A stretch of 64,000 bases of DNA. Source: Gadus chalcogrammus. Lineage: Eukaryota > Chordata > Actinopteri > Gadiformes > Gadidae. The stretch lies in the NCBI RefSeq assembly GCF_026213295.1, contig NC_079419.1, positions 25,576,111 through 25,640,110 of the forward strand. The letters are read 5' to 3'. The notes beneath the pieces are model-generated. The model searched no databases. It saw only the letters and a program-made list of their open reading frames with translations, and was not told the DNA's origin. A program made the position numbers and the translations under genes. The first letter of the stretch is position 1, and every line of letters begins with the position of its first letter. This document shows, piece by piece, positions 24,833 to 62,203 of the stretch.

Positions 24833-24910
<78 letters not shown>

Positions 24911-25010: not shown

Positions 25011-25053
<43 letters not shown>

Positions 25054-25065
25054 GTGTGTGCACAT
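24833..25065. repeat. Long interrupted (TG)n microsatellite
   Basis: A pure TG run to about 24907, then TG with interspersed substitutions. Confidence 0.98.
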
Positions 25066-28685: not shown

Positions 28686-28866
<181 letters not shown>

Positions 28867-33650: not shown

Positions 33651-33901
33651 ACTTAAGATATCTATTTTAAACTTGTATAGGGTACACTCAAAATATCTTA
33701 ATGAACTACATAAATGCTTAACTTGTATAGGCTCAGGGGCGGATCTAGAAAAATATTCATGGGGTGGCAAGAGGGGGACAGGAGATTTTGAGGGGTGGCA
33801 TGCTCTGGCAGAAGTATATACAGTATGCCAATTTAATTAAAGCCATATCAATCAATATTTACTTGGAAAGCCCCCACATTTAAATATTTAGACTCAATAA
33901 C

Positions 33902-38425: not shown

Positions 38426-39717
38426 ATTGTGACAATTCACGGATATATTAAATGCAGGTGCGCTGCTCAGGCAAACCGCGAAGGAAAAAAGGGTAGCTGC
38501 TTCATCTGTTCTTTTTAGAATTGTATGTCTTGATGTTTTGATCTAGCCATAGATCTATTGTCTTGTTTTTGGCTATGTGAATTGAAGTCCGCGTCGATGC
38601 CTCACAAGTCCAGTGTCGCGAGCGGACGTGACATCTAGAAATCATACCGTATAATAATGGGTTATCATTGATATTGATGTGTAGGGGTTGATTATAACTC
38701 GTGAATAATATTGTTTATACCACAGTCTGAGGGAATACTCGTATTCTGATTGGCTGCAGGGTGTGTATTATCTCCTGATATAGGCCTACAGACACCTGCT
38801 AAGTAGTTCCAGTCAGTGTTTAGATTCTCTACCCGAGCCCGAGCCCGACGTCGGGTCGGGTCGGGCCGATATTTCCCACCACTATCCTCGGGCCGGGCCT
38901 TTGATCGAGCGTTTTTATCTTTATTTTTTCATTGGTTTATTAGCCTAATCTGAGGAGAAATCTATGCCATAAACAGAAATATTATAGGTCTTTATTACAC
39001 GGGTCTTCTCAATGCCGTGGAACGCTCCGTTCACTTGCATGGGTCCGGTGACTTGTCAACCCCTCTGCTGATCAACACTACGAATGCTGGTAACGAATAA
39101 ATTGTAAAAAAAGACACAGCATGTGAAGTTATTTTTTCGTTTTGGCAGTAGCCGTGTAATAAGCGGGCTAATGTATAGAACGTCGCCGGTCAATATCGAA
39201 AATAAGACCCTTCAGGGCGAAGCAAGACATCTTCGCTGGGCGTCGGTGTAGCCTACTGTTCGCCCTGGTGGGGCTTATTTTCCCGATAATGACCGGCGTT
39301 CTATGCATTATCCCTTACATATATATTAAGCAGAGTAGACTAAATGTGAACAAAGTTACATATGTATTAAAAAAAATGTTGGGTTGAAATCGGGCTTGGG
39401 CTCATAATTACAGTTAATCTGTCGGGGCGGGCCGGGCTCGGACAGAACGTGCACGGGCTCGGGCTTGGTTTTCTTTATTAATCGAATGGGAAATGCAATA
39501 GGCCTATTTTAGGACCGAATCACCGTTAAACTGGTTTGGTTTCTAATAAAATTTCTAGCGAGAAATATACGTTTTACTTGCATAATCTTTAGTCAGTGAT
39601 TACGTCAGGTTGCTAGGGACGCTGCTTTCGCTAAACTAGTAGCTCACGTGTTTCCTGCGTTTGTGTTATTAAACCGTTACTTTATGTAGCCCAACTTTTA
39701 ATGATATCATCTTGTTA
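38426..39717. other. Gene-free DNA with several short inverted repeats
   Basis: A GC-rich palindrome-like block (CGAGCCCGACGTCGGGTCGG) lies near 38838-38870. A foldback segment near 39175-39305 carries GGCGAAGCAAGAC and inverted GAACGTCGCCGGTCA/TGACCGGCGTTC ends. The stretch at about 39485-39625 is related to 4440-4650 in the transposon. No gene was seen. Confidence 0.5.
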
Positions 39718-40271
39718 TGCCGCTTTTCCACCGCACATGTAGCTCGACTCGACACGACACGACTCGACACGACTCGACACGGTAGCAGCGCGGGTCCTTT
39801 TCCACCGCAAATAGTACCTCCGGGACGTGGGCGGGGTCGGCTGCGCGAAAGGGCCGTGACGTATTTTTGTACGCGACGCAAACAACACCTACGTAACCCA
39901 CACATGGACAGAACCCACATAACAACAATGGAGAACATCGATGCGATGGTATTCGTGTTCGTATTATTAGCTGGCATGTTGAAGAAGTGGAATATGTTGG
40001 CTGCGGCGCTGCTATGGCTGTTACCAGCATGGTTGCCATGTCGCTCTCGTGACTTCGTCACACTCTCTGGCCAATCAGTGGCCGGCCGTCTGCCGACGTC
40101 ACCTTTTAGCATCGGCTCAGCCGCTTGGAACCTAGAGCGAGGCGGTACTAGAAAAAGCAGCCACTTCAGGTACCAGATACCATGTTTTCGCGGTGGAAAC
40201 GCAAAAAAGGCGAGCTGAGTCGAGTCGAGTCGAGTCGTGTCGAGCTGGTACCATGCAGTGGAAAAGCGGCA
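39718..40271. mobile_element. Harbinger-like MITE with TTA duplication
   Basis: It is 554 bp with inverted ends TGCCGCTTTTCCAC, extended by imperfect (CTCGA)-rich inverted arms. It is flanked by TTA at 39715-39717 and 40272-40274. A 3-bp TTA/TAA duplication is typical of PIF/Harbinger elements. The open frame inside has no transposase motif. Confidence 0.65.
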
Positions 40272-40380
40272 TTAGAAACACGTATATCCGAGAGCCAACC
40301 CAGTCGCCAAAAGCATACGTTGACAGTGTACGTTTTCGTGAACACTGGATTACGTCGCATCTCAACATAAAATAGCGTGT

Positions 40381-40383
<3 letters not shown>

Positions 40384-40460
<77 letters not shown>
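40384..40460. repeat. (CA)n microsatellite
   Basis: A pure CA run just outside the left end of E2. Under the inversion model it was originally the flank of E1. Confidence 0.98.
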
Positions 40461-40462
<2 letters not shown>

Positions 40463-40489
40463 GCATTTCGCTGCTAAAACAACAACAAC

Positions 40490-41263
40490 CAACACATTCT
40501 CACTCCGAGCGCGTCGATTTCTGACGAACGGTCAGTGACTTTTGCTTCAGTTTCTGACGCAAAAGGGTACCCTTGCGCTGCTTTTTTAGACGCATGGGGT
40601 TTTCAACTAGTTACAATGTAACCCTTTGACGGGGGACCCGATGGCTGCACATAGAGACGCTATGAGCATTCATATCCCATTGGCTAACGGAGGACCTTGC
40701 GCTTCTTTTTTCGACGCAGGGGGTTTGCCACTCATTGCAATGTAATCCCTCCACGGCAATATATGAAGCTATGAGCGTTCATTCCATTGGCTAACGGAAG
40801 AGCCGATGGCTGCACATAGAGACGCTATGAGCATTCATCCCATTGGCTAACGGAGGACCTTGTGCTTCTTTTTTCGACGCAGGGGTTTTTCCACTCATTA
40901 CAATGTAATCCCTCCACGGCAATATATGAAGCTATAAGCATTCATCCCATTGGCTAACGGAAGAGCCGATGGCTGCACAATAACAGCGATTTTACAGTGA
41001 CATCTGTGACATTCCTCAACACAACTACACCAACGTGTCCTTGTTAATTACACAACATGTATGGGTTAAGGCTCTGGGCATCAGTTGTCCTGTTTGGTGC
41101 TTTGATTGAGAGAAACAATCGTTTTTTTGATCAGTGTTGGGTAGCTGAGGTCGTTGCTATAGAGACCACGTCCGTCCGCTTTGTTTCACAACTGACAGAG
41201 CTGCCAAGTCTCACCATTTGGCCCTGAGACACACTCATATCAACCAGTTCACACACTATCACA
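40490..41263 (+). repeat. Left TIR of E2
   Basis: It has a 159-bp terminal unit (40490-40648), two subunits of 165 and 163 bp ending at 40813 and 40976, then a unique inner part. It matches 60734-61839 inverted once two extra subunits are discounted. Confidence 0.9.
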
Positions 41264-44157
41264 CGCCACAATTCAAATTTCCCACGCGGATAAACGAATC
41301 CCCAAAATAACGATTGTTTTGCGTGACTTTTATTTTGACAGATTTATATTGAAAAGCTAACGGACATGATTTCCGTGACATCCTCTTTCTGCATGCGCGT
41401 TAACGTGATGCTTGGGTGTGCACTGCGCAGCCGCCCTCAAAGCAGCTCGGAGGTTCGGAAGCTCTTACGTTTCAGGAAACGTTCGTAGGTTATAACATAA
41501 AACCGGAAAAACAGGTCGTTCGTGAGACTAGACTTCATAACAACAAGTATGGATGCCCGCAGGGACCTCTTTGCGCTTTTTAACTGAATCAGAATAATCA
41601 GTTACTAGAACTGCTTGCGATGGTTGAACATGAGGGAGAATTAATCAGTTAATGTTTATAATTTTAAGCTGTAATTCAAATGTTGGAACGGGTGTTAAAT
41701 TCACCTCTTAGTGCTTGCTGCACGTTCACTTTAGTCTGTCAATGAAATAGTGGCGAAGTCACGCCCCTTCCGGTAGAGCTCATGGCACCTATGAGATCGA
41801 AAAATATGAATGGGTGTCAATGGAGAGAAAATAATTATTTTCTGGTCCCGGTCTTTATATGCCCTGGATTACACATATGTTGTTTATGGATTTAAATGAT
41901 AATTTTTCATGCAAAGAGTTCAACCGTTTATTGTGCAACTGTTCAGATAAAGGCTGTAGAGAAAACACAACGAGAAAGACTACACGGCTCGTATGTGACG
42001 TCACGCTCCCTGCGACTGGCGTGGAGAAGACCGACAATCTTCCCATCGGCATAACTGAAACTCTGCACGTGCCCCGATTTATGATGGTTTTCAACTCTTT
42101 CGATGCTTTTATCCTCCCCTTGGAAACAGCGGTGAAGTGGGGCAGAGAGATCGCCATCTCTGTGCCGAGTTCCAAGTGCGGGTGTTGTGACGTATATCAT
42201 ATGCGTCGAGAGCAGCGAAGAGCTGTAGTTCACAAAGCGGCCTCACATAAAACTTAAAATTATCAATCTTCTTCACGAAAATTTTTACTTTTCTTTGCAT
42301 GAAAAATTATCATTCAAATCCACAAACAACATGTGTGTAATCCAGGTCATATAAAGACTGGGACCAGAAAATAATTATTTTCTCTCCATTGACACCCATT
42401 CATATTTTTCGATCTCATAGGTCCCATGAGCTCTACCGGAAGAGGCGTGACTTCGCCACTCTATGGGCAGCTATTGTTTTGACGTCAACTCGGAGGCTCG
42501 GGTTCCTCTACTTCCGTAGAGGAAGTTCCGAGGGAAATCCACAGAGTGTTCAAGGCGATTTCCTCCGATCTGAAGGTCCCAACCTCCGAAATTCCCAGGA
42601 ACTCCGACTGTTTGAAGGCACCAATACTAGAGTGGCGAAGTCACGCCCCTTCCGGTGGTCCCCACGGGACCTATGAGATCGAAAAATGTGAATGGGTTTC
42701 AATGGAGAGAAAGTAATTACTTTCTGGTCCCAGTCTTTATATGCCCCGGATTACACATATGTTGTTTGTTCTCTGCCGGGAAAGCCTATGTTGCCAGAAT
42801 GGGCGGGTAATCTGCCCTAATCTGGCAACACTGGCGGAGGTGTCACTAAAACGATCCTAAGCAGTTGTATTTCATCAGCAGGTTCTGTATATAGATCACA
42901 AGTTCCGAGTATGTTTATCTTTTCTTGATATCTAATTTGAACATTTATGGTCTAAATCGTTGATTGATTGCAGTATTGGAAATCTGCAAGGCTGCAATTC
43001 CCCTATTTGGCCGCTGTTCGTCGCTATTTTGTCGGCCTCTTTGCCATGGCAGTCACGTGACTGCAAAGTATATAAACTCCCCCACGATTCGTGCCAGTTG
43101 CAGTGTTCCCTCTGAGAATCAGGTACGTGTCTTGTTCGATATAGAAAATATTAAAATCTAAGCCACTATAATGAATGAATAGAATCGGCCTAAATGTTGT
43201 CAGCACATTTTTAGAATTGCGGTTTCATCTGATTTAACCACTTAATCGTCAAATTTCGCCGGCGGGTGAATTTTAGTTGCACCACCCCTTCCCCGCAACA
43301 TGCTGGGTCAATTTTCGGCATCATAAGGTTGAGTGATATAGTCATGTCATACACCGTTTGAAAGCTTAGATTCTCAGGATTTTCAACCAATGTCAACCAT
43401 TCGGTGGAATAATTATGTTTACCGATCAAATGTATCCTAGTGTCTTGGGTCAAAATGGCCGCCCTCCCCCTCCCCCTCTTGGTGCATTCTTAACTTATCG
43501 TCGTTGTTGATATCCTTAGCAATGAGGTTTTTTATACCATTGCGGTTTGCACTTTTTAAGTAAAAATAATGGCTTAAGCACTGTGTTTTTGCATTTTTGT
43601 CAAAATTGCATAGGCGGAATAGCTAAAAATCTGATTTTTGAGTGATTATGCCTTCATTTGAAACCAATATTATGCTTCTACATGTTTGGGTTCATGTGTA
43701 GTAAACCTTTTGTTTAAAGTATGCTTTTTGGGTAGCCAAAGGTCTTTTTTGGAGTCTCCAAAAGGACCCTGACCAAAACGAATTGACATATCCATGCATA
43801 AAATGCTTGGTTTTAGAGGTGTGTGTAACCGGCTGGAAGGAAAAGCAATATTGTTCCCTTCCCTGCACTGTCTGTACCTGATGCAGTTATTCTGATGTCA
43901 TTCAATTCTACAGGTTCTCAGCTTTCCAAAGAGCAAATGCACTGGTATTATAGTTTTGAGTTTATCAATTCTGTTCTGCTCTCTCAACAGGTCCTGCAAT
44001 TTTTGTCATCCAAACCAACCCAAACAACCCTTTTTCTAAAACCTCGACCCAAAGGCACTTTTAAGAGCCACATCTGTCTTGTCAACCTGTCCTTGCAGTG
44101 TTGTACTTGTAAGCGTCTGTCTGTCTCTCTCTCTCGCTCTCTGTTGCCTGTCACCTG

Positions 44158-44197
<40 letters not shown>

Positions 44198-44206
44198 CCC
44201 TTCATC
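41264..44206. other. Leader region of E2 upstream of the transposase
   Basis: No supported gene. It contains the foldback family at 41748-42764 and a (GTCT)n tract at about 44158-44196, directly before the transposase start codon. An open frame running into the transposase from 43895 is broken in E1 by repeat-length change, so I treat it as untranslated. Confidence 0.5.
41748..42764. repeat. Foldback MITE-like family (E2)
   Basis: The mirror of 15000-16016, with the same three arm copies. Confidence 0.75.
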
Positions 44207-47200
44207 ATGAGTGATTCAGAACTCCAGAATCTGTTTTCGAGGGTGGATAACATGGCTGTTCAGCAAGAGGTCAATGATGTCCTCCAAGGGGTTGATGACT
44301 TGATTGCTGTGGTGCAGGATGAGCAAGCAGCAGCACCGCCAACCATGAGGTGGAAGAAGAGAACCAGTGACGGGAACTTAATTCATGCAAGACCACGATC
44401 AGCTAGGAATCAGTCCAATCAGGGTCAGTATTGTTTTTGCATTCTTGATGTTTAAAGATCCCAGATTTTAGGCACGCTAAAATCAAGGAAAACCTAAAGC
44501 TTGATGTGTATGGTATCGGCGGAGGCAAACCAGAACCAATATTTAGATGACTCATTTGCAAACCAAATACATTTTTCGTTCTACCCTTTTTCAGCCCCAT
44601 CAAATATCAAAAAGGTCTACTTGTCGCTTCTAAACAGTCAAATCTAGATAAATGCTTAACAGTGAGTGTGTGCTATTATACTCTACATACTATACTATAA
44701 ATTATTGTCTTTTTTTTTCTTTTTTTTCTTCAGTTACAGCTGGTAACAGCAGTGGACTTCAACAGCAGAAGACTCATCCCAACAAAAATGCTCCTGACTC
44801 AAACTCTGAGGTGGTCTTTGCTCCTGATAACGTTGGTATGTAAAACATTTCTTTTTAATAATTGGTGAACATTAATTAATAGGAAATTCTTACTTGTATC
44901 TGTATGATGTATGTGTTACAGAGTTAAGATGTAAAGTCCATGTTGCAGTAATTATGAACATGGTAATAGTAATTTCACCTTTTAACAGCCATTCCATAAA
45001 GACACTTTAAATAAAAAACGGACTCTTTTGTACTATTTTAACAGATGGATTTCTACGAGATCTCCAGCAATCATTGAGCGATGCAACAGGAGATGGGGTG
45101 GAATCACCAACCCCACAAGCCTCTCTTTCTGCTTCATTAAACTGGAGCACAAGAAAGAGCAATTCTTCGGAGAGCTGGAAGGCAGCGAGACCTCGTCTGG
45201 TTAACACCGCACTGGCACAAGAAAATGTGGGAACCCGAAAGTGCCAACAGTGTTGGAGCAATTTAGCTGTTGTTCGTTGTCGTGATTGTCTACCACGGCC
45301 CTTATTCTGTGCGGAGTGCGACGTCGTCATGCACACCAGACACCCCCTTCACAACCGAGATGCCAGTACTTTGGGATTTTTCCAGCCATTGCCCCCAACA
45401 ACTACTGTACAGAATATGGACCTTTGCCAGTGTGGTAAGTTCTGTACAATGTATTTTAAGTACAAAATAACATGTGTGTGTTTGGGCGCGCATGTGTGGG
45501 GCCATATTTTCTGATTTAAGGTATCCCTCATCCTTAGAGTTTATGTGCTCTGTCATTTTGAAGTTGACAGACTGCAGAGTAACTTCAAACACTGATACTT
45601 CCATAAAACTGATAGTCCGATAAAAAACAGTATTTAATTTTCACATTTCATTCAACGCGATTTAAAGTATATTACCAATTTAAATTCTACTAAGAATACT
45701 TTTTAAGAAGCTTGGTTGGTAAACTTTTTATCACATGGGTACAATGTTTTTCCCTGTTACAAATGATTCCTAATTCACTTTTTTTTCCCTTTGATTTATT
45801 TTAGTGCGGTATGTACCTGTGGAGATCCCTCGCCAAATCTGTGGTTGTCCAACAGAGGCACTGAGGCTCAAACCAGGAAAAGCTGTGGCTGTGATCACAA
45901 TGAATGGTGAGAACGTGTAACTTTTGTCCTGTTTGAAAAGTTTATTTTTAATAATAGCAATCCCTTCTCAACTACTGCCACAGGTTTATGATGGCTTTGT
46001 ATAGGAAATCTTAAAATTACTTAAAGATCCCATGCCATTCTATTTTATGATGCTTTAATATAGGTATTAGTGGGCCACAAACACAGTATTCAAAGACGTC
46101 CCCGAAATTCAGCCGTGGTGCAGAGTTACAGTCACTCCGAAACAGTCGCACATTGAGCTTCCCCCAAACGCGCTGTTTCGGTGGGCGTGTCAAGGCAGGT
46201 CAAGGAGGGGGGTGGGGGTGTGGCCCTGAGCAGCTTGTAGCCACTACCATGCGCTCTGTATACGGTGGGCGTGTCAAGGCAGGTCAAGGAGGGGGGTGGG
46301 AGTGTGGCCCTGAGCAGCTTGTAGCCATTGACAGTACCATGCGCTCTGTTTACGGTGGATGTATCGCAATGGCTCGTAGAAACCCATATTATACATAGAT
46401 ATCTATATAATATATAATATCACCTGGCCCTGAGCAGCTTGTAGCCACGGTACCATGCGCTCTGTTTACGGTGGATGTATCGCAATGGCTCTTAGAAACC
46501 CATATTATACATAGATATCTATATCATATCATATATAATATATATTATCACGGCCAAAATCTGTGTGAGCCTCCAGACGATAGGTTATTATGAATCTCAA
46601 ACGACCGCGTCTACTTCAGATTGATGTGGAAGTGGAAGAACCAGAGACGTCGGAGAACCCGACGAAGTCCTTTGTGATTCATTATATCGTCTGGACGCGC
46701 ACACAGCTTTTGGCCGTGATGTATTATTTGATATAGATATCTATGTATTATATGATATTATTTAGATATAGAGCAGAGCTCCAGGTCTGTAACGCAAGTG
46801 TTGTACACTTCCTTGTTATTTGGATAACCGTTCTGCTGTTGGTGTTATGGCATAACACGTCGGACTCTCGTCTCTGGTATTTCTACAACGAGACTCGTAG
46901 TGGGGGTTATCTCAGCCATGGTTGAGAATGAATTGGGGGGGAAAGGAACTTTGGCTTTGACTCCCTGAAGTAGGCTACATGAACCACGACATGGAGGAGA
47001 AAGGGATTGTTGGCCGCGAATGTATCCCGCTTGAGCCCTGCTTCCCGCCGCCTCGGCAGCGGTCAGCGCTAATCACCGCATCCTGAAGCCGAGGCGGTGG
47101 TCCATCGGCAGCGAAGCTCCGGCGGGAGACGACCGCGGTCAACAATCCCTTTCTCCTCCATGTCGTGGTTCATGACTTCAGGGAGTCAAAGCCAAAGTTC

Positions 47201-50200
47201 CTTTCCCCCAATTCATTCTCAACCATGGCTGAGATAACCCCCACTACGGGTCTAGTTGTAGAAATACCATAGACGAGAGTCCGACAGCAGAACGGTTATC
47301 CAAATAACAAGGAAGTGTACAACACTTGCGTTACAGTCCTGGAGCTCTATATCTAAATAATATCATATAATACATAGATATCTATATCAAATAATACATA
47401 TTATCACGGCCAAAAGCTGTGTGCACGTCCAGACGATATAATGAATCACAAAGGACTTCGTCGGGTTCTCCGACGTCTCTGGTTCTTCCACTTCCACATC
47501 AATCTGTAGTAGACAGAACCGCGCGCTGCCTGCTGCCTGCTGCCTGCTGCCGGCGCAAGGCACCACCGCCCGGCTGCCCGCTGCCGGGCGGTGGTGGTTC
47601 GCGGCGGTGGTGCCTCGCGCCGCGGCAACCGGCGGCAGGCAGCATGTCGCAGTTCATGTACTTCGATGTCGTTCGGCCATTGCATTCAAAATTCTGTAAC
47701 TAGCCTGTTACTACGAACTAAGCAACTACCATACACGTATTAGCATTTAGCACTAGCTCAATCACGACTCCTTCAGAATTCTTGTGGGTGGTTACGAACC
47801 AACCAAGTGGGCAGGGCCATGAATAATAGTTTGACAACGCTACGTCACAGTGTCACCTTATCCAGATTGGCTCATTTCTTCTGCCTTTTCCCTTTCATTG
47901 CCTATTGCATTCAGCAGACAAACTGCATAGATTTCAAACTTACCACAGCTCACAAACTTATTCAGACCTATGTTATTTAACAAACAACAGGAAAAATGTG
48001 ATTTTAATGGCATGGGCTCTTTAAGTAATGCATTATATAAAAAGTCATAAATATAAATAAGTGTGTAATTCCCTTTTTATATTTGTTTTTTAAGGGAGAC
48101 ATGAGCTCAGCATGCCTGAGTTGGCATGTGAAGCGTGCAAAGCCACATGGACTGCTGGTGTTGACGGCATTCTTCACAGCGACTACTGGCCAGCTACCCT
48201 GAACTTTGCCACCATTTATGGAACTGATGTTTTTGCTTCATTTGAAGAAATGAAAATGGCAGCACCTGGATTGTCCTGTCAGGCATTTTTAAAAATGTTG
48301 GATCAGAGAACTGTCCGCTTTGGCCGTGTGAGTATTGAAGTTATCTGTCCTTTTTTTATTTATTTGTATGCTGCTTAAAAATCTCATTAGCCGTTGATGT
48401 CTTTTTTTTTTTTGAGACAGACTGGGAAGATCTCAGCTGACACCTTCGCCAAAAGCTTTTTTGAGTGGGAGGCTGTCCAATATGAGATGGACAACATATG
48501 CAAGGAGGAGCCATTCACCTGTCCTGCCTGCAGCCCGGATATGCTTGCGGTTTCCGTGGATGGTAACCGCAAGCATTACCGCTTCAAGAATGCATCTAGG
48601 TACTATAAATTATTTATAATGTCAGTGTTTGAACTAATGACAAAAGTTCAGCCTCCTAATATGCACCAATTAACCTGTTTTATTTAGTGCTGAGGAACAG
48701 GCCATATTTGATGGCGTCTTCATCGCGAAGGATGACGACGTCGCAAAATTTGTGAACTACATTCACACCACAACCAAGCATGTAATATTGCAGACTATAA
48801 TTATATAAACATGAATACAATAATCTCCTATTCAAGATTTTTTTTTAGGTAACCCTTTTGACCATTTTAAATGTTTATATTGTAGGTGCCCGGAAGAGGC
48901 GTTTGTGGGGGGGAATGGTCGGCGGCTCGAGAGACCTCCAAAAAATCTGCCAGCAAGCTGGATGAAGAGGGACTGGAGCTTGCTGTGTGTCGGCATGGGC
49001 TGCTCCTATGTGCCCTCAATATGTTCAGGGGAGAGATCTTTGCATATCCCCTGTACATACAACGAAAGCTGGCCAACCTCACGCCGACCTTTTATTGCAT
49101 GGATGTCACATGTAAATACTGGCCCTACCTCAACAAGGTTGCAAGAAGCTGCCCAGAGCTCCAGCATCTGCTCAGCATGAAGCCCTTCCTTTCAGTGTTC
49201 CATGCCAAAGCCCACGATTACAAATGTGACGTAAGCAATCATTACCAAGTGAATCACTTTATGTGAATATCCACACATTCACGTCAATATTGACATGTCA
49301 TAACATGCTTTGTTTTTTATGCATTTTAAACAGGTAAAATGGAGTGGTGCCTATCAAGAGGGGGCTGGATTGACACTAGGGGAGGAGGTAGAGCAGGTCA
49401 ATGCCTTCCTCTCTCGGATAGCAGTGACCACCAAACACATGTCCAAAGCAGGTGAATGGCTATAAAGTATGAACATGGGTACAAGAAATAAGCTGAAGTT
49501 AACACTAGATAACGCCATCATTTTATGCTGCAGGACGCACAGACATGCTCACCCTCTTGGCCATGCGCTGGAATCAGCAAAAGACTGACAACTTGGCCAC
49601 CTCACTGTCCCGCAGATATCTGAGGGTATTAACATCTTTTTTTTTTTAAGTTTTGTTAGCAGATATTGAGGCTGTACACTGAATTTACTTAATTATTTTT
49701 ATTTACTCTAATTATTTTGTCATTTGTAGACCACAAAAGCTCTGGATGCCCAAAAGCGGAACATGGAGTCCATGAAGACCGAATTGGACGTCACAGAGAA
49801 CCAGATGGAGGACTGGGTCAGTGACGTGAAGGATTGGGCAGACGGTGAGGAAATTATAAGTTTTGTAAGCACAGAGTTTCAGACTCTTGGCGATAATATC
49901 CTCTAACATTCTACCTAGTCTTTCTGAAGTATTCATTCAAATTAAACCGTTATTAGAAGTCACTTAAAATGTAACACGCATTTCCTCTCTACAGCAACAA
50001 CCATCAACACGACTGATGTTGCCGCCTTGGCCAGCAGGGTCGAGGTGCTGGTTGCCAGTATTAAGAGACGGTCGCAGCGTCTCTACAAAGACTGCGACAG
50101 CAACAAAGGTCGTGCCAGGATCCGCCGCAAGATCCGGGACGAGAGGGGGTTCCTGAGTTCTGTGGTGGAGAAGTACAACGGAATGGTTCCCACAACAGAG

Positions 50201-50887
50201 ACTCTGTGCTTTGAAAACATTCTGTCTGGAGAGACGGCTTGGCCATGGCAGCTACCACACAGTGGTAGGTTCACCAGTTGCTAGTTTGAATTTTAAATAC
50301 TTCCAGCAAATTTGGCACACCTAATGCCTCTAATCGATCTCCATCTAACTTCTTTGTTGAATGCTCATCTTTCATGAATATGAGTTAATGTTTTTTTATA
50401 AATGCTTTTCAGACTCTGTTGACCTTCGGACCAAGAGGAGAGCATTTGACCTGGTCATGGCAGGGAAAAGAATCCAGGAGGAGAAAATGATTCTTCAGAG
50501 GGAGATGAATCAGCACTGGAGGTCTCTGGGGAATCGTGCTGACTCCCTAAAAGAGCTGTCCTGCCTTGTTTCAAGGGCTACAACAGAACGTATGTTTTTA
50601 ACTTGCATCACATTTATATGCACATCAAAGACTGGTGATCATTTTACTAATACTGGCTTTCTCATAACCTTCAAGATTCACCTTGGGGCCTTACTGAGGA
50701 AGGGTTGACTGGTCTACAGTGCATGATCAAAAAGAAACGGCACTTCATCACAAAAATGATGGCTAACGCGAGACACTGCTACCTACAAGTGTTGACTGCA
50801 GCAGAGGGGGCACAGATGATCAACTCCCAGGACACTTCTGATGACTACTCGGACAATGACTCTGACATTTCGGATGATGCATTTTAA
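44207..50887 (+). CDS. KDZ-superfamily transposase, E2 copy
   Basis: Fourteen exons: 44207-44423, 44734-44835, 45045-45434, 45805-45906, 48095-48327, 48421-48599, 48688-48781, 48886-49230, 49334-49451, 49534-49625, 49730-49844, 49995-50264, 50413-50589, 50676-50887. All have GT-AG borders and total 2646 bases (881 residues plus stop). Residues 173-209 form a B-box-like Cys/His cluster (CQQC, CRDC, CAEC, HTRHPLH), like the cysteine clusters associated with KDZ transposases. A second Cys group is near 236-260. The core has VDGN (D395), CRHG (474), MDVTC (D512), HAKAH (about 543) and LGEEVE (E571/E572), a plausible DDE set for the RNase-H-fold transposase. Residues about 620-670 look helical/coiled. 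The tail is acidic (DDYSDNDSD). It should cut and paste the element by acting on the TIRs in the nucleus. Activity is inferred. Confidence 0.88.
46181..46348 (+). repeat. 84-bp tandem duplication present only in E2
   Basis: GTGGGCGTGTCAAGGCAGG recurs at 84-base spacing (46181 and 46265). E1 has one unit at the matching place near 11530-11600. It is the largest difference I found between the copies. Confidence 0.75.
46606..47511. repeat. Large foldback inside the intronic element (E2)
   Basis: The mirror of 10355-11260, with about 370-400 bp inverted arms around a GC-rich centre. Confidence 0.8.
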
Positions 50888-53800
50888 ACAATGGCTATGC
50901 TTTGATTATTTACCAAATTATTTTTAATTGATTTCATACTCTATTTAACTGCCTTTTAAAACCTTTGTGAAATAACTAATAAATGTGTTTTTGCCTAAAT
51001 GTTGTCTGATCCTTTAACTTCCTTCAAGTGCACTAGAAAGCTTTTTCCAAAGCTGATTATTTGTTTTATGTCTTATAGAATTGTCTCCTCTGTGCCATCT
51101 CTTGTCTATTTATCAGAATTTAATAAAAGACTTGGTTCATATAGCACTTTTCAAAACAGTTATAAAGTAGGCTACTGAACAGATAAAAACGTTATCAATA
51201 AAAACCTGTAGAGACGATGAGCTCTATAGAATAAAAGGCCCGGCCCGGAGGTGGTAAATCAGCGGGGCTGTCCCGAGGAAGTTTTGCTGGGAAAGAGTCA
51301 CTGGAGGCGGGGTTGAGGGACGGAGCCGGGGACCCGGCCTGGAGGTGGCCAATCAGCGGGGAGTTCTGGATGAGGCGCGGCCGAGTTAGAATGAGAAGTG
51401 GGACTGGAGGTCCCCACAGTGCCCCCCGCACCGAAACTTGGCCCGGTCGGACCCCGAGGTTAGGAAGTGGGGGGCCTCCCCTTCCGGCCCTCGGGGTCCG
51501 ACCGGGCCAAGTTTCGGTGCGGGGGTCCCAGTTAGGCACTAGAATAAGGTATTCAAATTTCAGGGCGGTAGGACCTTCCTATCTCAAAAACTTTTTCCAC
51601 CACATTCTGAACCATTAGGTCTTACAGGCAACACTTCTGAGGGGCTTTGTCCAAATGACACTCCATTTGGGAAAACTTTTTTTCTCTAAGGGCTAGAACT
51701 CCAAATCTCGGATATGTCGTTCTTGGGGCCCCGGGAAATGTGTGTAAACATTTAAGCATCCCTAGCTATCCCGAAAAGGTCGGAAAAGGGGCGTGACCTC
51801 CAACAGTATAGTAAATGTACATAAGTCAAAGGTTAGTTTCTCGTCCCCATTTTTTGTGGGATAGAGGTGTACATTTGTGGCTTAAGGTGTGTAGACACAG
51901 CTGGCCTGTGGCCACGTTTTTGAAGTCTGGGGTCAAAAGGTCAATAGGAGCCGGCACCACGCCGCTTATGAGATAACAAAAAGTTAATGTGTATTTCTCA
52001 CATAACTTTTTGTCATTATTAAAGAGAGGCCTGATTCTCAGATATGCATGTTGGATGGCTAGGGTGTAGGTCTGGGAAGAACTTCAGCCCAAAATCTTGC
52101 AAGCGAGCCGCTGGGTGAGGTGCAACGAGATGGAGCACTTGCTTAGTCACTTGTGTGAGCCTTTCCTGTAGGGATGGAGCCCTACTTGATAAAAGTTGAT
52201 AATATGCGTCCTTTCTGACCCCCTTTGATATGAAAGAAACCCCAGGTCTATAGCTTATTTGTTAATGGGGGTGCTTGTGGACAGTAGGGGTACATTTGAC
52301 ATAAATAGGAAGCACACTCAGGAGGAGGAATGAATGACCTCTCACCATGATACTTAATTCATTGTTTCAAGTAACCCTGCCTCGTTAAATCTATAACCTT
52401 GTTTTGCTTTCAAGAATAGGTTATAGGCTGTGTCACTATAAAATCTCTACATGCGCATATCTGAGAGTGACGTAACAAGCCACCAGACAGCGATTTAAAA
52501 AAACGAATCAAGTTCATTACAAAAGTAAATCTAATCTGCGGATAATAGAAACATATTCCAAGGTGCCTTTTGAATGAAATTTTGAATATCTGTCTATTTC
52601 CTAGCCAGCGGACCCTTGTTTACGACAAAAACAACACCATTTAATTTACGGTAGCTCAGTTGCCGCCCTCGTTAACGTGGTTTGGAGGAGAGGGTTATCG
52701 ATAGCAATCACTATAGCAACCATGACAGTCAAGTGACGTAGCCGCAGCCCCATTGAAAATAATAGGGCATGTCATTAGAGCCGTGCGCGACTTGGTTTAA
52801 AAATCGGATAAATCGGAAATTGTTGTTTTGACGAATCCATAACTAGAGAGTTCCCCCCCCCCCCCCACACACACACACACACACTTTTTCTAAAAAAATA
52901 ATCTCCCAATCGAAATGCAATTGGTTTAATATGTAATTAATTAAATATTAAAATATATATTCTATATATAAATATACAATTATTTAGTTATAATATTATA
53001 AGAAGACCATAGCTCTTATTCAATTATCTTTAGAACAAGATCTGTATATGACCATTGAAAATAATAACCAAAGAATAACCAAATTCAGGTGGATTATCCA
53101 AGGGCTTCTAGACAATATTAAAATATTTATAACATAAAAAATTAGGCTATACATACAGCATTATCATACATTTGGTTATAGGTCAAATTTGGTTTATGTG
53201 TCAGCCTCGGCTGGCCCACAATTAGATCGTCGCGTCCCTAGCAACCTGACGTCGTTTAAACATGCTAGCGAGACCATAAAATCGTCCTAATGACTATCAA
53301 ACTAAAGATCTGACACATTCAGTGACTGAAGATTATGCAGGTATAAAGTACATTTCTCGCTAGAAATGTTATTAGAAACACGTTGAATGGTGAATCTGTC
53401 CTAAAATATTGCATTTCCCATTCAGATAATAAGTATTAATATTTATTATATTAAATACTAATATAGGCTACCTAACCATTTCACCAAATGCTGGGAGAAC
53501 CACTCGCCCCGTTTGTGCTATTCCTCCACTCACGCTTTGGCGTGATACCGAATTGGACCCCCACATTGAAAAACAACGCAAAAGGTACACATCTTTCGTT
53601 GGAACTTGACGCCAGGGATCCTTGGCCATGCGTCACACTTCTGACGAGTAGGGAGTGAGACTTGTGTTGCCGTGTGTCATAGGAAGCTAGGAGCATCTCA
53701 TGATTTCTCACTGAGGCAGTAAATCGTTTCACATTTCTGGGTTTGTGAGCACTCCAGACACTCAAATCTATGTACACAAACACCAAAACGATTTAAAATA

Positions 53801-54067
53801 ATAATTCACCTTTTGTCATATTGTTACACAATTAACAGTCAGAGCTTAGCAAAAACTTTTCAATCATTGTATTTCAAAATATATATATAATTATAAATGC
53901 AATAAAATGGACAAACGCACGAGGCAGTAACAACAATTTATTTAATAAATGCATCACTTTTGAAAGATGTCTGTGTATGTATGTGTGTGTTTGTGTGTAA
54001 TAAACACTTCCAAAGAAACAGGAATATCAAACAAATAAAATAATATACATAAATAAATAAAATAGAT
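50888..54067. other. Intergenic region between the convergent transposon genes (E2)
   Basis: The mirror of 3810-6989. AATAAA-type signals follow the transposase stop near 50980. The hairpin is at 51423-51525 and a (C)n(CA)n tract at about 52854-52884. No gene is supported. Confidence 0.55.
51423..51525. repeat. Perfect 36-bp stem GC-rich hairpin (E2)
   Basis: The counterpart of 6352-6454. The arms are identical between copies even though three single-base differences lie within about 250 bp of it. Confidence 0.85.
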
Positions 54068-57000
54068 TTAGCTAAACTGTTGGCTGTCTGGCTCCCATGA
54101 ATCGTCCCACTTCTTCCCACTGTCAAGAAATGAAATAAAAAACAGTAATTGAAGGTTAAAGGATGAACTTTTTTTATCTATAACATTCTTATTAAAGCTA
54201 TAGTGCGTTACTTTCGTCTGTAACATTTGTGCCATTGTCCAATGAATTTACACAGAGTTGATTAAGCCCAACAGCTCCACAAAACTCTCTCTTTATTTCT
54301 CAGTAGGGCAGTGTTGACACTGGTGAAGGAGCCCAGAAAAGAGCCCAAGAAATGTTAAAGTTGTTGATTGTATTAGTCATAAAAAACCTGGACGTACAGC
54401 AGAAGGGATACAATTGATGTGCGATCAGCAAAAGTGTACCTCATGTAGATGCACCGACAGTGTTGTTGTAATTACTCAGAATTCCTCTTGGGCCCCGACA
54501 GAAGTTACACACTATAGCTTTAAACATGTTTTATAAATCCTTTGTTTCCAGTCAAACTTACCACTTGGGGCATGGTGTCCAAGAGACTTTCACCTCTTCT
54601 TTTCCCTGAAAGGCATGACATCAGAAAATATGACAGAAGTAGTTGTGAGAGAAAGGCATTTCCTGTAGAGACAGATGGTCAATTTAGCTGTATTGTGTGA
54701 TTTATCCATCTCCAAATACCTACTATCACCACACAACTTAGAATGTATTATTTAATACAAGGATTAAGCATCAAATTTTAAACACTGTCTATCTGGGTCC
54801 AACAGTATGAGTTGCATTTGTTTTTAAATGGTCCAACACAAAATCCTGTAGAAATTGGTAACCTAACAATTTTACATGTTATAGCCAAATATGCCATAAC
54901 GTTCATGTTATCCTTTTCTCTAAACACAATACTCTCTTCACTCCTGCAAAGGTGACTACACATAGGCCTCTTTTAAGGCCAAAGTTATTCTTTCGACCAA
55001 TCAACTGACGGCAGTGTATAGCTTCATCTTTTCGGCACCCTTTCAGACAGCTTGGTACCCCATGCGAGGAGTACCGAAAATAGGAGCAGCTCAGCTCGCT
55101 TATTTTTAGAGGCAGGGCCAGGGCGCTTTTGGCCCCACTCCAGATAAAGTCCATCCTGGATCCGACTCTCGTGGTAATGGGCAACAAAATCTGAACGGCT
55201 TGGCTTGGCCAGCAAAAAGTGCAGATGGAAAAACGCAGTAAATGTACTAAACTAAAAGCCCTCAATCCATCCTCAACATACACCATTATGTGTTGTCTTA
55301 TGAAGCATATAAGGACTACGTTGCAAATGTTTCATAATTAAAAAAAACACTTGTTTTTAACTTACGTTTAAAACACGTTTATCAACAATGCGTTGAAACA
55401 GGAAAACCTTTTGATTTTTGTGTTTTCTGCATTCTAAAAAGATAAAGTAGAAAAGATTAATACAAATCACATGAAGTATATTGTGTTAATTAGAAAACCC
55501 TAACAATGTAATACATTTATATAGCATCAACATTTATGCAGAGTAAATCAAACCTTTTATTTTGGGCCTCTTCTTGGAAGAGGAGGCTGGAGATCGAGGA
55601 GGTTCAAAGTTGGAGAGGGATGGATGAGGTTGAGGGGAGAAGGATGGAGAAGGTTGAGAGTTAGAGAAGGAAGGAGGTTGGGAGTTGGAGAAGGATGGAG
55701 AAGGTTGAGAGTTAGAGAAGGAAGGAGGTTGGGAGTTGGAGAAGGATGGAGGAGGTTCTAAGTTGTGGAAAGATGGAGGAGGTTCAGAGTTAGAGAAGGA
55801 TGGAGGAGTTTGAGGGTCTGAGAAGGATGGAGGAGGTTGGGAGTTGGAGAAGGAAGGAGGTTGGGAGTTGGAGAAGGATGGAGGAGTTTGAGGGGATGAG
55901 AAGGAAGGAGGTTGGGAGTTGGAGAAGGATGGAGGAGTTTGAGGGGATGAGAAGGAAGGAGGTTGGGAGTTGGAGAAGGATGGAGGAGGTTCTAAGTTGT
56001 GGAAAGATGGAGGAGGTTCAGAGTTGGAGAAGGATGGAGGAGTTTGAGGGGATGAGAAGGATGGAGGTGGTTGGGAGTTGGAGAAGGATGGAGGAGTTTG
56101 AGGGGATGAGAAGGGTTCTGGAGGAGGCTGAGAGCACACAGGAGGGGCTGGTGGACCGCTGTTTTCCAGGGGGGGCACAGCTGCTTGTGGAGCACAGCCC
56201 TGCAACACTGAAACAGTATAAAAGAAAATCTGATATGAGCCACGGAAGAACTCCTCCCAAAACATTTAGAACAACCTATTTAATTTAGCCTCAATTTTAC
56301 AAATACTAATTTATTATATATATGTTCAAGATTATAGTTTGGGTTTCTGTCCTCCGTTTTAATTTCACCGCATACATCTGATAACACGGATGTCGCTGCT
56401 TTTGACTGATGCCCTGCCGGCCTGCAGCTAACTTCCTAATAAAAAAATGTCATAGGGGGGCTAATAATTGTGTCCTCAACTGTATAATGTATGTATCTTT
56501 AACAAGGATGATCTTACTTGTCAGGAGGAGCTCATAGCATTTGCTCATTTTGGAAATGATATCCTTCACCAACACGTTATCTGTGGGGATAAAGTGAATC
56601 AAGTCCCCCACAGATTTTCCTTTGCGGCCAGGATTTCCAAGAAATAGTAGGGGTTTCCGACCAAGGGCATTTAGTTTTAAGACCTGCAGGAAATACAATG
56701 AAGAAAATATATGCATTTACACCTTTGCTTAACAAATTAGCATAACACAAGTATTGGCATTTACAGGTGAGGATAATCAGCATCAACTCAAGAGCTTAGA
56801 CTCTTTGCTTATTATTAGCTTAACTTTGTGTTGTCTGTCAAAATTAGGGGTGTGCCCCTGTAACCGGTTAGTAAATCATAACTGTTAAGGAAAAATCAAT
56901 AAACTAAAAGTTTTTTTTTTTAAATAAAGTTTTGAAAATGATTGAAATGTGTTCTGGAGACACACAGTCATTAATTTCACATCACAGAAAACACAACCTA

Positions 57001-57711
57001 TTAAGAGATGATAAAAAATGGTTTGCATAGTCTGTCTGCCCCGCTCAGTTTGTGTGTGTGTGTGTGTTTGTAAGCGGCCCGGCAGCACTGCAGGCCCGCC
57101 ACATACACAAGATAACCTGAATATGCCATCCTGAGCAGATGATCAGGAAACCAACAAATATGTGAAGCTGCATGTGGCGGCATAGTCATGAACAAAGGTG
57201 GGGGTGTTTGTCCACTTTGTAAAAGGCAGCTGTTGAATTTTCAATTTAATTAGAACAAATTATGGGTCATTTTAAATTAGTTGTTCCTATTTTTTTTTTA
57301 AAGAGGCAGCCTATTATCTTATTATTAGGTTATATATGATCAGGTATCCGGTGATCAGTATATCAGGCATATTGATCAATGATGAAAGTCATGGTTTGTT
57401 ACAGCATTTATGGTGGTTTCACTTTACCTAAAAGGAGGACAAATTGACAAATAAGAACATTATGTTATTGTCTCAGAGGCCAAAACCTTTGTTGAATTAC
57501 AGTAATTTAAACTCACAGATAGCTGGGCTGAATTTATAGCCCTGGCACCGTTTCTGTATGACTTTGCAGAGGATGCCCAGCTGTCCATCTGCAAATTATC
57601 TGGGAGCTTGTTCTTCCGGGGAAGGGGGAGGAGACACTGGCAACATGTCTTCCTTCCAACAGAATTTTCGGCCTGGCATGAGGGGCATCGCTTCTTCTTA
57701 GGCTTTGTCAT
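54068..57711 (-). CDS. Accessory zinc-ribbon/proline-rich protein of the KDZ transposon, E2 copy
   Basis: Exons in transcript order are 57711-57517, 56683-56518, 56207-55554, 55433-55366, 54605-54562 and 54119-54068, giving 392 residues. It has the same layout as the E1 copy: a basic start, a C9-x2-C12/C23-x2-C26 cluster, a conserved 55-residue segment encoded by exon 2, a proline/serine repeat, and a CPKCGKKW C-terminus. No stop or frameshift was seen. The gene faces the transposase tail to tail, with its promoter side toward the right TIR. Function unknown; a DNA- or transposase-binding partner is a guess from the zinc clusters and location. Confidence 0.75.
55587..56127 (-). repeat. Coding minisatellite in accessory gene exon 3 (E2)
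   Basis: The same frame-preserving PPSFSNSQ-type units as at 1750-2290. Unit order appears unchanged between copies. Confidence 0.85.
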
Positions 57712-59076
57712 TCTGCAAATGATAGTGAAACATAGAGGGTTAATCTTAGATATATTTGATTTCAGTTGATAACATTATCAAATTCACACATATAATATGT
57801 GAATTAATTCATGCATATTAGTGATATTGCATTTGGAGTGAAAAAAGATATGATATTAATTCATTGTCAACACATAACTATGTGGGAAATTATACTGGTT
57901 ATACAGTACATTCAAACACAAAAGACAATTTGGGTTGTGCATGGTAAAATTAACAATTACAACCAGAACTTAGTACATTTCTCTTGAACTAAAGAAGACA
58001 ACATTAGGTGGATAAGCAATATTATGGGCACTTAATTACTTTCAGGTGAACATCAGATTGTTGAAATAAGGCATTTCTTGTAAAAGACAGCTTATTGTCA
58101 AATATATGGGGAGTACTAACAACTTATGAGCAACATTATTAAATAAATACTAAATGGCAATAAATCAACAGAAAGACCACTAAGCGAGTTATACACAACA
58201 TTCAGAACAATGAAAAAAATAGATGCATCTTCTGTAAATAAGCTTAAATATACTTATTAAGATTCGTATTAAATGTCTATTTGTTAGATGGGAGAAAAAA
58301 ATGCATTTAAAGTTATTGCTTAATACCATAGACTGTATAATAGAAGCGTAATACACACTTAATATATTGTTTGTCACTGATATAAGGTGTGTATTACGCT
58401 TCGTAATACACGTTATACACGGGGGCGTTAAAAAAAATTCAGGCACCGTTATGAGGCACCGAAATGTGCGTTCTTATTCGATCTAGGTACTACCGTTTAA
58501 TCGGAACCGGTGCCCTACTGGAACCGAGTTTCGGTGCTTGGTGGTAAGGCTACATCTTACGAACGATAGTGAGCCACCTAACCTAGCAAGAAGTTTTCAA
58601 ATGTACACGCGATGCAAAAAATATGTATAGCCTATATATTAAAAAATAAGTTATATTGAAGTGTCTTTCACTCTCTCTCTCTCTCATAGACATAGGCCTA
58701 CTGCTCGTTGGAGAGATTTCAATTTAGTTAAGCCTATATTCTTAGTTAATCATATTTAAATATTTTGTACAACTTACCTGGGTCTGGTGGATCCTGAGTC
58801 CCGATTTGAAGCTCATCTACGATTCCCAAGGTGCACTGCGATTAACATCCCATCGGTGATAGGTCAATCCAATCCTATCACTTACTCGCTTACAGCGAGC
58901 AGAACTGTTGATGTTTCGTGATCATGTTTGAGACACGAGTATAATCATCGCTAACTTCTAATAAGTTCAAATTCATATTCCATTAAAAACAATAATATCA
59001 TTCCACATTTAAAAAAAAAATATATATAACCGGCGGATTTTTCCTGCTTCTTCCTGCTTGTTATTGAGCTCGTAAG
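57712..59076. other. Right subterminal region of E2 upstream of the accessory gene
   Basis: Gene-free. From 57877 onward it has no counterpart in the window because E1 runs off the edge. A GGCACCG...CGGAACCGGTGCC inverted motif lies near 58442-58545, and a short (CT)n near 58670-58684. Confidence 0.5.
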
Positions 59077-59230
59077 TCCGCCCCTTCCGGTATACCCCGC
59101 ATGGGACCTCTGAGATCGAAAAATATGAATGGGTTTCAATGGAGAGAAAGTAATTATTTTTTTCGTCTTTATATGCCGTGGATTACACATATGTTGTTTG
59201 TGGATTTTAATTAAAAATGTGCATGCAAAG
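59077..59230. repeat. Single diverged arm of the foldback family
   Basis: It matches the 15305-15473 arm, with the TGGGACCTCTGAGATCGAAA block and the TGTTTGTGGATTT inner end. It runs into the palindromic array through a CTGCTCTCGACGC segment also found in the middle of that family. Confidence 0.65.
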
Positions 59231-59316
59231 AAAACCAAAAAAAATGTGAGGAAGTTTGATAATGTCAGGGTTTTTTTAGGCCGCTTTTTGAACTACAGCC
59301 CATCGCTGCTCTCGAC

Positions 59317-60313
59317 GCGAATGATAGCGCGTCGATTTCTGACGAACGGTCAGTGACTTTTGCTTCAGTTTCTGACGCAAAAGGGTACCCTTGCGCTGCT
59401 TTTTTAGACGCATGGGGTTTTCAGCAGCCATCGGGTCCCCCGTCAAAGGGTTACATTGTAATAGTTGAAAACCCCATGCGTCTAAAAAAGCAGCGCAAGG
59501 GTACCCTTTTGCGTCAGAAACTGAAGCAAAAGTCACTGACCGTTCGTCAGAAATCGACGCGCTCGGAGTGAGTGAGAATGTGCTGCTGATGCACATTCTC
59601 ACTCACTCCGAGCGCGTCGATTTCTGACGAACGGTCAGTGACTTTTGCTTCAGTTTCTGACGCAAAAGGGTACCCTTGCGCTGCTTTTTTAGACGCATGG
59701 GGTTTTCAGCAGCCATCGGGTCCCCCGTCAAAGGGTTACATTGTAATAGTTGAAAACCCCATGCGTCTAAAAAAGCAGCGCAAGGGTACCCTTTTGCGTC
59801 AGAAACTGAAGCAAAAGTCACTGACCGTTCGTCAGAAATCGACGCGCTCGGAGTGAGTGAGAATGTGCTGGCCATCGGGTCCCCCGTCAAAGGGTTAGGC
59901 CTACATTGTAATAGTTGAAAACCCCATGCGTCTAAAAAAGCAGCGCAAGGGTACCCTTTTGCGTCAGAAACTGAAGCAAAAGTCACTGACCGTTCGTCAG
60001 AAATCGACGCGCTCGGAATGAGAATGTGCATCAGCAGCACATTCTCACTCACTCCGAGCGCGTCGATTTCTGACGAACGGTCAGTGACTTTTGCTTCAGT
60101 TTCTGACGCAAAAGGGTACCCTTGCGCTGCTATTTTCGAAGCATGGGGTTTTCAGCAGCCATCGGGTCCCCCGTCAAAGGGTTACATTGTAATAGTTGAA
60201 AACCCCATGCGTCTAAAAAAGCAGCGCAAGGGTACCCTTTTGCGTCAGAAACTGAAGCAAAAGTCACTGACCGTTCGTCAGAAATCGACGCGCTCGGAGT
60301 GAGAATGTGCATC
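59317..60313. repeat. Palindromic array of the transposon's terminal unit
   Basis: Seven partial copies of the roughly 120-155-bp terminal sequence alternate in orientation: forward at about 59329, 59592 and 60033; reverse ending at about 59583, 59871, 60028 and 60308. They form head-to-head palindromes around a CAGCAGCCATCGGGTCCC centre. Spurious open frames with repeated ASVSDAKGYPCAAF peptides come from this array. Confidence 0.85.
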
Positions 60314-60339
60314 AGCCCTTCCTCCTCCGCCTCTTCTAT

Positions 60340-60592
60340 TCTTCTTCTTATTATTATTATTATTATCCTTCTTCTTATTATTATTATCCTTCTTCTTATT
60401 GTTATTATTATTATTATTATCCTTCTTCTTCTTATTATTATTATCCTTCTTCTTCTTATTATTATTATCCTTCTTCTTATTATTATTATTATCCTTCTTC
60501 TTCTTATTATTATTATTATTATCCTTCTTCTTCTTCTTCTTCTTCTTCTTCTTCTTCTTCTTCTTCTTCTTCTTCTTCTTCTTCTTCTTCTT

Positions 60593-60623
<31 letters not shown>

Positions 60624-60730
60624 TTATCCTTCTTCTTCTTCTTCTTCTTCTTCTTCTTCTTCTTCTTCTTCTTCTTCTTCTTCTTCTTCTTCTTCTTCTT
60701 TTCCTTCTCCTTCTCCTCCTTCTCTTCCTA
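60340..60730. repeat. (CTT)n/(ATT)n polypyrimidine tract
   Basis: About 390 bp of CTT with ATT interruptions on the plus strand, abutting the inner edge of the right TIR. The leucine, serine and phenylalanine runs in its frames are not genes. Confidence 0.97.
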
Positions 60731-60733
60731 CTC

Positions 60734-61839
60734 TGTGATAGTGTGTGAACTGGTTGATATGAGTGTGTCTCAGGGCCAAATGGTGAGACTTGGCAGCTCT
60801 GTCAGTTGTGAAACAAAACGGACGGACGTGGTCTCTATTGCAACGACCTCAGCTACCCAACACTGATCAAAAAAACGATTGTTTCTCTCAATCAAAGCAC
60901 CAAACAGGACAACTGATGCACAGAGCCTTAACCCATACATGTTGTGTAATTAACAAGGACACGTTGGTGTAGTTGTGTTGAGGAATGTCACAGATGTCAC
61001 TGTAAAATCGCCGTTATTGTGCAGCCATCGGCTCTTCCGTTAGCCAATGGGATGAATGCTTATAGCTTCATATATTGCCGTGGAGGGATATTACGTTGTA
61101 ATGAGTGGAAAAACCCCTGCGTCGAAAAAAGAAGCACAAGTTCCTCCGTTAGCCAATGGGATGAATGCTCATAGCGTCTCTATGTGCAGCCATCGGCTCT
61201 TCCGTTAGCCAATGAAATGAATGCTCATAGCTTCATATATTGCCGTGGAGGGATATTACGTTGTAATGAGTGGAAAAACCCCTGCGTCGAAAAATGAAGC
61301 ACAAGGTCCTCCGTTAGCCAATGGGATGAATGCTCATAGCGTCTCTATGTGCAGCCATCGGCTCTTCCGTTAGCCAATGGAATGAATGCTCATAGCTTCA
61401 TATATTGCCGTGGAGGGATTACATTGCAATGAGTGGCAAACCCCCTGCGTCGAAAAAAGAAGCGCAAGGTCCTCCGTTAGCCAATGGGATATGAATGCTC
61501 ATAGCGTCTCTATGTGCAGCCATCGGCTCTTCCGTTAGCCAATGGAATGAATGCTCATAGCTTCATATATTGCCGTGGAGGGATTACATTGCAATGAGTG
61601 GCAAACCCCCTGCGTCGAAAAAAGAAGCGCAAGGTCCTCCGTTAGCCAATGGGATATGAATGCTCATAGCGTCTCTATGTGCAGCCATCGGGTCCCCCGT
61701 CAAAGGGTTACATTGTAACTAGTTGAAAACCCCATGCGTCTAAAAAAGCAGCGCAAGGGTACCCTTTTGCGTCAGAAACTGAAGCAAAAGTCACTGACCG
61801 TTCGTCAGAAATCGACGCGCTCGGAGTGAGAATGTGTTG
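60734..61839 (-). repeat. Right TIR of E2
   Basis: The reverse complement of the left TIR, but with four 165-bp subunits instead of two. It ends with the 159-bp terminal unit and GAATGTGTTG. Confidence 0.9.
61021..61680 (+). repeat. Four 165-bp tandem subunits in the right TIR
   Basis: GCAGCCATCGG starts at 61021, 61186, 61351, 61516 and again at 61681 at exact 165-base spacing. Each unit contains two CCGTTAGCCAATG motifs, which could be repeated protein-binding sites. That role is inferred. Confidence 0.9.
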
Positions 61840-61846
61840 CCCTGTC
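61840..61846. repeat. Other half of the split target-site duplication
   Basis: CCCTGTC follows the E2 terminus directly. Its partner is at 17275-17281, not at the left flank of E2 (40483-40489, CAACAAC). Confidence 0.8.
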
Positions 61847-62203
61847 ACACAAGCCAAGATGGACAAAAAACATCAAGCTCTATGCTGGCATGAGTGTGGC
61901 AAGCGAGGCACATTATTACACCTGCTATGGGAATGCCCAGCTGTTAAAACACTCTGGTTGGATGTAATATCATTTTTGTCAGAGTCTTCAGATGTAAACA
62001 TTCCAGTTGGTCCCAACATATGCTTACTGGGCCTTAAGCCAGAAAATGTTGTGGGGAGGGCTGCTGTCCAGAGCTGGACATTGGGCTGTTTGTCCACAAA
62101 AAGACTCATCCTTCTAAATTGGAAGGAGCGCAAAACGGATTGCTTTAGTAAGGAAACATGGCTACAAATATATATAACTATTTTGATCCATCATCATTGT
62201 TGA
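61840..62203 (+). pseudogene. L1-type LINE ORF2, 3' end
   Basis: It encodes the L1 C-terminal zinc-knuckle-like region (CWHEC, GTLLHLLWECP) and ends at 62203. Its first codons continue exactly from the last codons of the minus-strand L1 at 17275, after counting the 7-bp duplication once. Some 3' untranslated sequence follows without a clear tail. Confidence 0.85.

Follow-up and report, generated by a model that had tools for sequence, protein, structure and literature searches.

What is known of the systems closest to the one described here is taken from excerpts of the papers cited. Zisupton elements are flanked by target-site duplications (TSDs) of 8 bp (PMC12730594), and nematode Zisupton genes are multi-exon and accompanied by terminal inverted repeats (TIRs) (PMC9297572). 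Kyakuja elements have 7-bp TSDs and CA..TG termini, those of Laccaria being without TIRs (PMC12730594). The Cryptococcus elements KDZ1-KDZ3 measure ~9-11 kb, contain CxC1, and have TIRs of 139-241 bp and TSDs of 8 bp or 4-8 bp (PMC12810828), and the giant KDZ elements of Ectocarpus and Chlamydomonas, ~30 kb in size, carry additional genes as well as nested insertions common to several copies (PMC12477816). In Atlantic cod, inversions have been ascribed to ectopic recombination between inverted copies of transposable elements (TEs) (PMC12368964). Here we analyse a stretch of 64,000 nucleotides of Gadus chalcogrammus (the window; C8:25576111-25640110 in a searched genome of 629.9 Mb), which holds a complete 21,350-bp KDZ transposon (copy 1) and, in opposite orientation, the larger part of a second one (copy 2), the TSDs of the two copies being swapped. 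A first-pass annotation made from the letters alone had proposed copy 1 as the best candidate for an undescribed system; that description is not supported, KDZ being a known superfamily in which ~30 kb elements with accessory genes are already published, at least in the excerpt of PMC12477816. The same annotation was right about the 21.35-kb element; the second copy escaped it, as did the inversion of the DNA lying between the two.

The main parts of copy 1 are:

40490..61839, plus strand: copy 1, complete KDZ transposon, 21,350 bp
40490..41263, plus strand: left TIR, 774 bp, tip CAACAC
60734..61839, minus strand: right TIR, 1,106 bp, tip GTGTTG, with extra 165-bp tandem units compared with the left TIR
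44207..50887 (stop codon included), plus strand: transposase gene, 14 exons, 881 amino acids
54068..57711, minus strand: gene 2, six coding exons, 392 codons, convergent to the transposase

The inverted repeats reach inwards to 41263 on the left and to 60734 on the right, and their outermost parts (40490-40838 and 61491-61839) are complementary at 100% of positions. GT/AG splicing joins the 14 exons of the transposase gene into an open frame of exactly 881 codons, in which a B-box-like finger, a CxC3 domain and a KDZ domain (residues 390-607) were recognised. The KDZ profile search that the first-pass annotation had suggested for the spliced protein gave a clear match to PF18758 (Pfam; E = 8.4e-35, 120.9 bits, cut-off 26.6), and CxC3 (PF18804) was matched with E = 1.8e-12 (47.5 bits, cut-off 26.6). 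The D/D/E residues are conserved, and the match to an RNase-H fold is moderate. Splicing, Pfam and residue conservation thus reproduce the 14 exons, the exact frame, the KDZ-type Asp/Asp/Glu motifs and the Cys/His cluster noted earlier, and together with the TIRs they bear out a complete element with both ends and both genes readable. The cutting chemistry would be that expected from family, residues and fold.

The ends of copy 1 recur across the genome. Its left 411 bases have at least 95 genome matches (40 of 319 candidates were scored). Among 40 nearly full end matches, 39 were examined (3 in the window and 36 elsewhere; one without the first 35 bases was left out), and 37 ends were compared after L039 and L040, both without a match to the tip word, had been dropped. 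Ten pairs of opposed ends lie within 25 kb of each other: six have perfect direct 7-bp TSDs, two are the swapped pairs of the window, and two on C7 have none. The six direct-TSD elements (C14, full length; C12; C16; C13; a second element on C14; and C91) have the same tips as copy 1, so that boundaries differing from 40490 and 61839, which the first-pass annotation had named as grounds for refutation, were not seen at these six pairs. The TSD is 7 bp long. Flanks matched in 9 of the 666 possible combinations of the 37 ends, namely the eight opposed pairs with direct or swapped TSDs and one case in a simple repeat. The latter, C111:12925, shares the left flank of copy 1 (GTTGTTG), and was set aside as chance, the wider flanks being different.

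The full-length C14 copy (21,308 bp) is 98.98% identical over its full length; under the exon map of copy 1 its transposase and gene-2 frames are both broken. Another nearly complete copy starts at C13:25216276, and both the transposase and gene 2 are matched there with the spacing expected; its right end was not found. A copy on C66 has an end and a transposase and reaches near the contig end. The five shorter TSD-flanked elements have TIRs ~98-99% alike and different interiors, with a LINE-like (long interspersed nuclear element) reading frame in at least one. Nine ends (L031-L038 and L041, on C106, C90, C75 twice, C20, C11, C7, C5 and C115) share one common outer flank, aaatcttgtgaaaatc, and so seem to represent one insertion multiplied inside a larger repeat. 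On C7, two short derivatives ~47 kb apart (L054, C7:8012516-8015002, and L055, C7:8061438-8063915) mirror each other closely; their outward flanks match and a direct TSD is lacking, and they are perhaps another inverted rearrangement at KDZ ends.

Two further structures were observed inside copy 1. A 906-bp palindrome (46609-47514, ~85% self-complementary) lies within transposase intron 4; it was found in all three full-length copies compared, and this nested insertion or foldback therefore seems to be carried along with the element. Inside the right end stands the following array, in which opposed tips are separated by 9-bp spacers, CTGCTGATG or CATCAGCAG:

59326..60309, unstranded: sub-terminal array made up of TIR-tip segments whose orientation alternates

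The second copy and the sequences at the junctions are:

1..17274, minus strand: copy 2, total length 21,357 bp, the remainder lying outside the window as far as C8:25572028
17275..40489, unstranded: interval between the copies, inverted (or flipped in the assembly), 23,215 bp
17275..17281, unstranded: GACAGGG, half of the 7-bp TSD of copy 1, beside the left end of copy 2
40483..40489, unstranded: CAACAAC, half of the TSD of copy 2, whose other half, GTTGTTG, stands directly before C8:25572028
61840..61846, unstranded: CCCTGTC, the other half of the TSD of copy 1
17282..21804, minus strand: LINE with endonuclease and reverse transcriptase (RT), interrupted by the insertion of copy 1
61847..62203, plus strand: 3' part of the reading frame of the LINE broken by copy 1

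Copy 2 extends in full from C8:25572028 to 25593384. Window positions 1-17274 are 99.6-99.8% identical to 57876-40490 on the opposite strand, and the identity ends at the transposon tip, give or take one chance base; an ordinary segmental duplication was rejected as the origin of the two copies on this ground. Over 21,206 aligned bases, 12 substitutions separate the copies. Within the 17.3 kb in the window there are 7 substitutions and 8 indels, none in coding exons, and the coding exons of the two copies are identical. The C14 copy carries the base of copy 1 at ten of the 12 substituted sites and that of copy 2 at the other two.

Copy 1 had been taken to be flanked by its own target duplication, which is not so: its flanks, CAACAAC on the left and CCCTGTC on the right, are no duplication of one another. 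Read on the minus strand, the flank at the left end of copy 2 is CCCTGTC, the same as the right flank of copy 1. An inversion predicted GTTGTTG before the right end of copy 2; this was written down beforehand, and the letters then read agree. The TSDs of copies 1 and 2 are swapped. Since the flank of each copy matches a flank of the other, the 23.2-kb interval is inverted between them, either in the chromosome or in the assembly only. A single undisturbed insertion of copy 1 was rejected because its own flanks lack a TSD, and insertion of two facing ends into the interval was rejected because the inner flanks (CAACAAC and GACAGGG) have no TSD in common. When the LINE halves are joined over one CCCTGTC, 155 codons stay open through the junction, with the endonuclease and RT upstream of it on the minus strand.

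That the interval was simply misoriented by the assembly between 21-kb inverted repeats, each copy truly having a direct TSD, is a serious possibility, to which we give a little less than even weight. It is typically between long repeats with few differences that such a flip arises. Swapped TSDs would look alike in either case, and the 155-codon junction is modest evidence, because the LINE is already split into several frames. On the other side, the copies do differ, by the 12 substitutions and by indels, which accurate long reads could phase, and C8 is a 29-Mb contig; neither point is decisive. The joined LINE site has no further copy in the window or in the fetched loci. Between the copies, at 17386-36816, at least two LINEs with endonuclease and RT and a DUF1759-containing frame were observed, all on the minus strand (8 of the 30 listed frames of the interval were scanned).

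Gene 2 had been described as a second conserved gene, and both the six-exon structure and the presence of relatives in other fishes are borne out. Its length is given by 391 translated residues plus one Ser and the TAA read off the sequence. Relatives were listed from Gadus, Boreogadus, Semicossyphus, Oreochromis, Sarotherodon, Mugil, Nibea, Acanthopagrus and Chaenocephalus. Two of the 16 proteins listed, one from a thrips and one from a bacterium, look like chance matches via the repeat; 7 of the 16 were taken into the alignment. The protein has a zinc-ribbon-like start (Pfam DZR, E = 0.004, under the DZR cut-off), a repeat-built Pro/Ser linker and a chromodomain-like end. In a PDB profile search with the C-terminus, chromodomains account for 30 of the 33 matches up to E = 10 (best 0.0066), and in a Foldseek search with a low-confidence model of this region for 45 of the 50 best rows of 104, none of them significant. 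Pfam Chromo was matched in three of seven homologues (best E = 0.0013). These profile matches are weak, but nearly all of them point to the same fold.

The NCBI G. chalcogrammus model P0122 (368 amino acids) agrees letter for letter with exons 1-2-3-5-6 of the window gene. We also observed that the NCBI isoform X2 omits exon 4 (region 54562-56207) and thereby loses the chromodomain-like end; exon skipping is a possible switch between two protein forms. The ATG stands almost directly after a splice acceptor, and a good donor ends at 58778 (region 57712-58778), so that a non-coding first exon is likely.

A search of the host genome with gene 2 gave 19 matches from 22 candidates, all scored, which group into nine loci, and the KDZ transposase search gave 90 matches from 98 candidates. 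A convergent KDZ match lies less than 18 kb from gene 2 at seven of the nine loci (the two window copies, C14, C13, C8:5.27 Mb, C5:2.75 Mb and C129), the last three belonging to a lineage at 53-55% identity; at C4 the convergent match is 37 kb away, and at C2 there is none. With convergence at eight of nine loci, gene 2 looks like a standing part of a KDZ clade and not a chance neighbour. At C8:5.26 Mb, exons 1 and 2 are present, but the 8 kb of sequence read there did not yield the C-terminus, which the similar Boreogadus protein P0124 does possess.

From the zinc-ribbon-like start and chromodomain-like end we tentatively suggest that gene 2 may encode a helper that binds chromatin and either directs insertion or counters silencing, a role that we regard as the likeliest one, though plausible short of probable. 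Telling against it, Pfam Chromo has no match in the window protein or in P0121. That gene 2 is a passenger with no part in transposition or silencing seems rather unlikely to us: it was not seen in the shorter derivatives, which moved nevertheless, as a passenger would allow, but it has been kept convergent with the transposase at eight of nine loci, including a lineage in which its identity is only 50-55%, and its relatives are present in many other fishes.

Together, these observations make it very likely that 40490-61839 is a giant cut-and-paste transposon of the KDZ superfamily, a reading taken jointly with the explanation of transposase, gene 2 and inversion given here; its autonomy and recent activity are only probable. 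In the mechanism we propose, the 881-residue transposase would recognise the CAACAC...GTGTTG ends, cut by means of an RNase-H-fold D/D/E site and insert with a 7-bp staggered cut, while gene 2, as a standing convergent part of the element, might bind chromatin and so steer insertion or counter silencing. Two copies would have landed 23 kb apart in opposite orientation, one of them within a LINE, and an exchange between them, most simply homologous recombination over a 21-kb near-identical inverted repeat, would then have inverted the interval and swapped the TSDs. That the transposase itself made the inversion, cutting at the two facing left ends with the interval religated in reverse, is improbable: apparent breakpoints exactly at the tips and swapped TSDs without gained or lost bases would suit it, but recombination anywhere within the copies yields an identical swap with no need for footprint-free religation, and facing ends inserting into the interval would have left a shared 7-bp TSD in place of CAACAAC and GACAGGG.

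In a quick tree of 51 rows, covering fish proteins only (the window transposase and 50 of 120 listed proteins), the branching does not match fish relationships cleanly (Maylandia and Xiphophorus, for instance, fall within carp-like rows), and several forks are weak; horizontal transfer would fit this pattern. Viral contigs scanned with the transposase alignment gave 34 stretches matched by the pattern and no relatives among them, and a scan of viral contigs with the TIR pattern gave no match.

With its open genes, exactly defined ends, known TSD length and conserved accessory gene, this giant vertebrate DNA transposon opens KDZ transposition to testing in fish cells. The swapped TSDs are, at base level, what an inversion between oppositely oriented transposon copies would be expected to leave, and the fish family concerned is one in which, according to the excerpt of PMC12368964, inversions separate ecotypes. 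Should gene 2 indeed read chromatin, the KDZ superfamily would have epigenetic helper genes of a second kind. In a wider picture, which we hold to be doubtful, a lineage of giant fish KDZ elements would carry a zinc-ribbon, chromodomain-like chromatin reader of its own for directing insertion or relieving silencing, the counterpart of the TET/JBP genes of fungal KDZ elements, and the long identical copies of these elements would invert chromosome segments in codfishes, which are known for inversions.

Neither the KDZ superfamily, nor giant size, nor the notion that TEs can mediate inversions is new; for the conserved zinc-ribbon/chromodomain-like partner gene and the reciprocal TSD swap, no precedent was met in the open-licence literature searched. 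As far as the excerpts extend, the Zisupton of fish resembles copy 1 in being a DNA transposon of the KDZ superfamily, in having TIRs and in encoding its transposase in several exons (PMC12730594, PMC9297572), but its TSDs are of 8 bp, against 7 bp here at all six direct pairs and both swapped pairs. Kyakuja shares the 7-bp TSD and the CA..TG termini; the Laccaria elements are TIR-free, whereas the present element has long TIRs, and described fungal Kyakuja elements carry a TET/JBP gene in place of the zinc-ribbon/chromodomain-like gene (PMC12730594). The Cryptococcus KDZ1-KDZ3 elements are alike in having a KDZ transposase with a CxC cluster, TIRs and short TSDs, but have CxC1, ~9-11 kb and TIRs of 139-241 bp where copy 1 has CxC3, 21,350 bp and TIRs of 774 and 1,106 bp. 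Giant KDZ elements of Ectocarpus and Chlamydomonas are similar in their size, their additional genes and their nested insertions in several copies; the hosts differ, and the chromodomains mentioned in the excerpt of PMC12477816 belong to Gypsy elements, not to KDZ. The text of PMC12368964 contains neither Zisupton nor KDZ. The Atlantic cod inversions that its excerpt describes likewise concern a gadid and recombination between inverted TEs, but they are large and involve hAT-derived miniature inverted-repeat transposable elements, in contrast to the 23 kb and the reciprocal TSD swap seen here.
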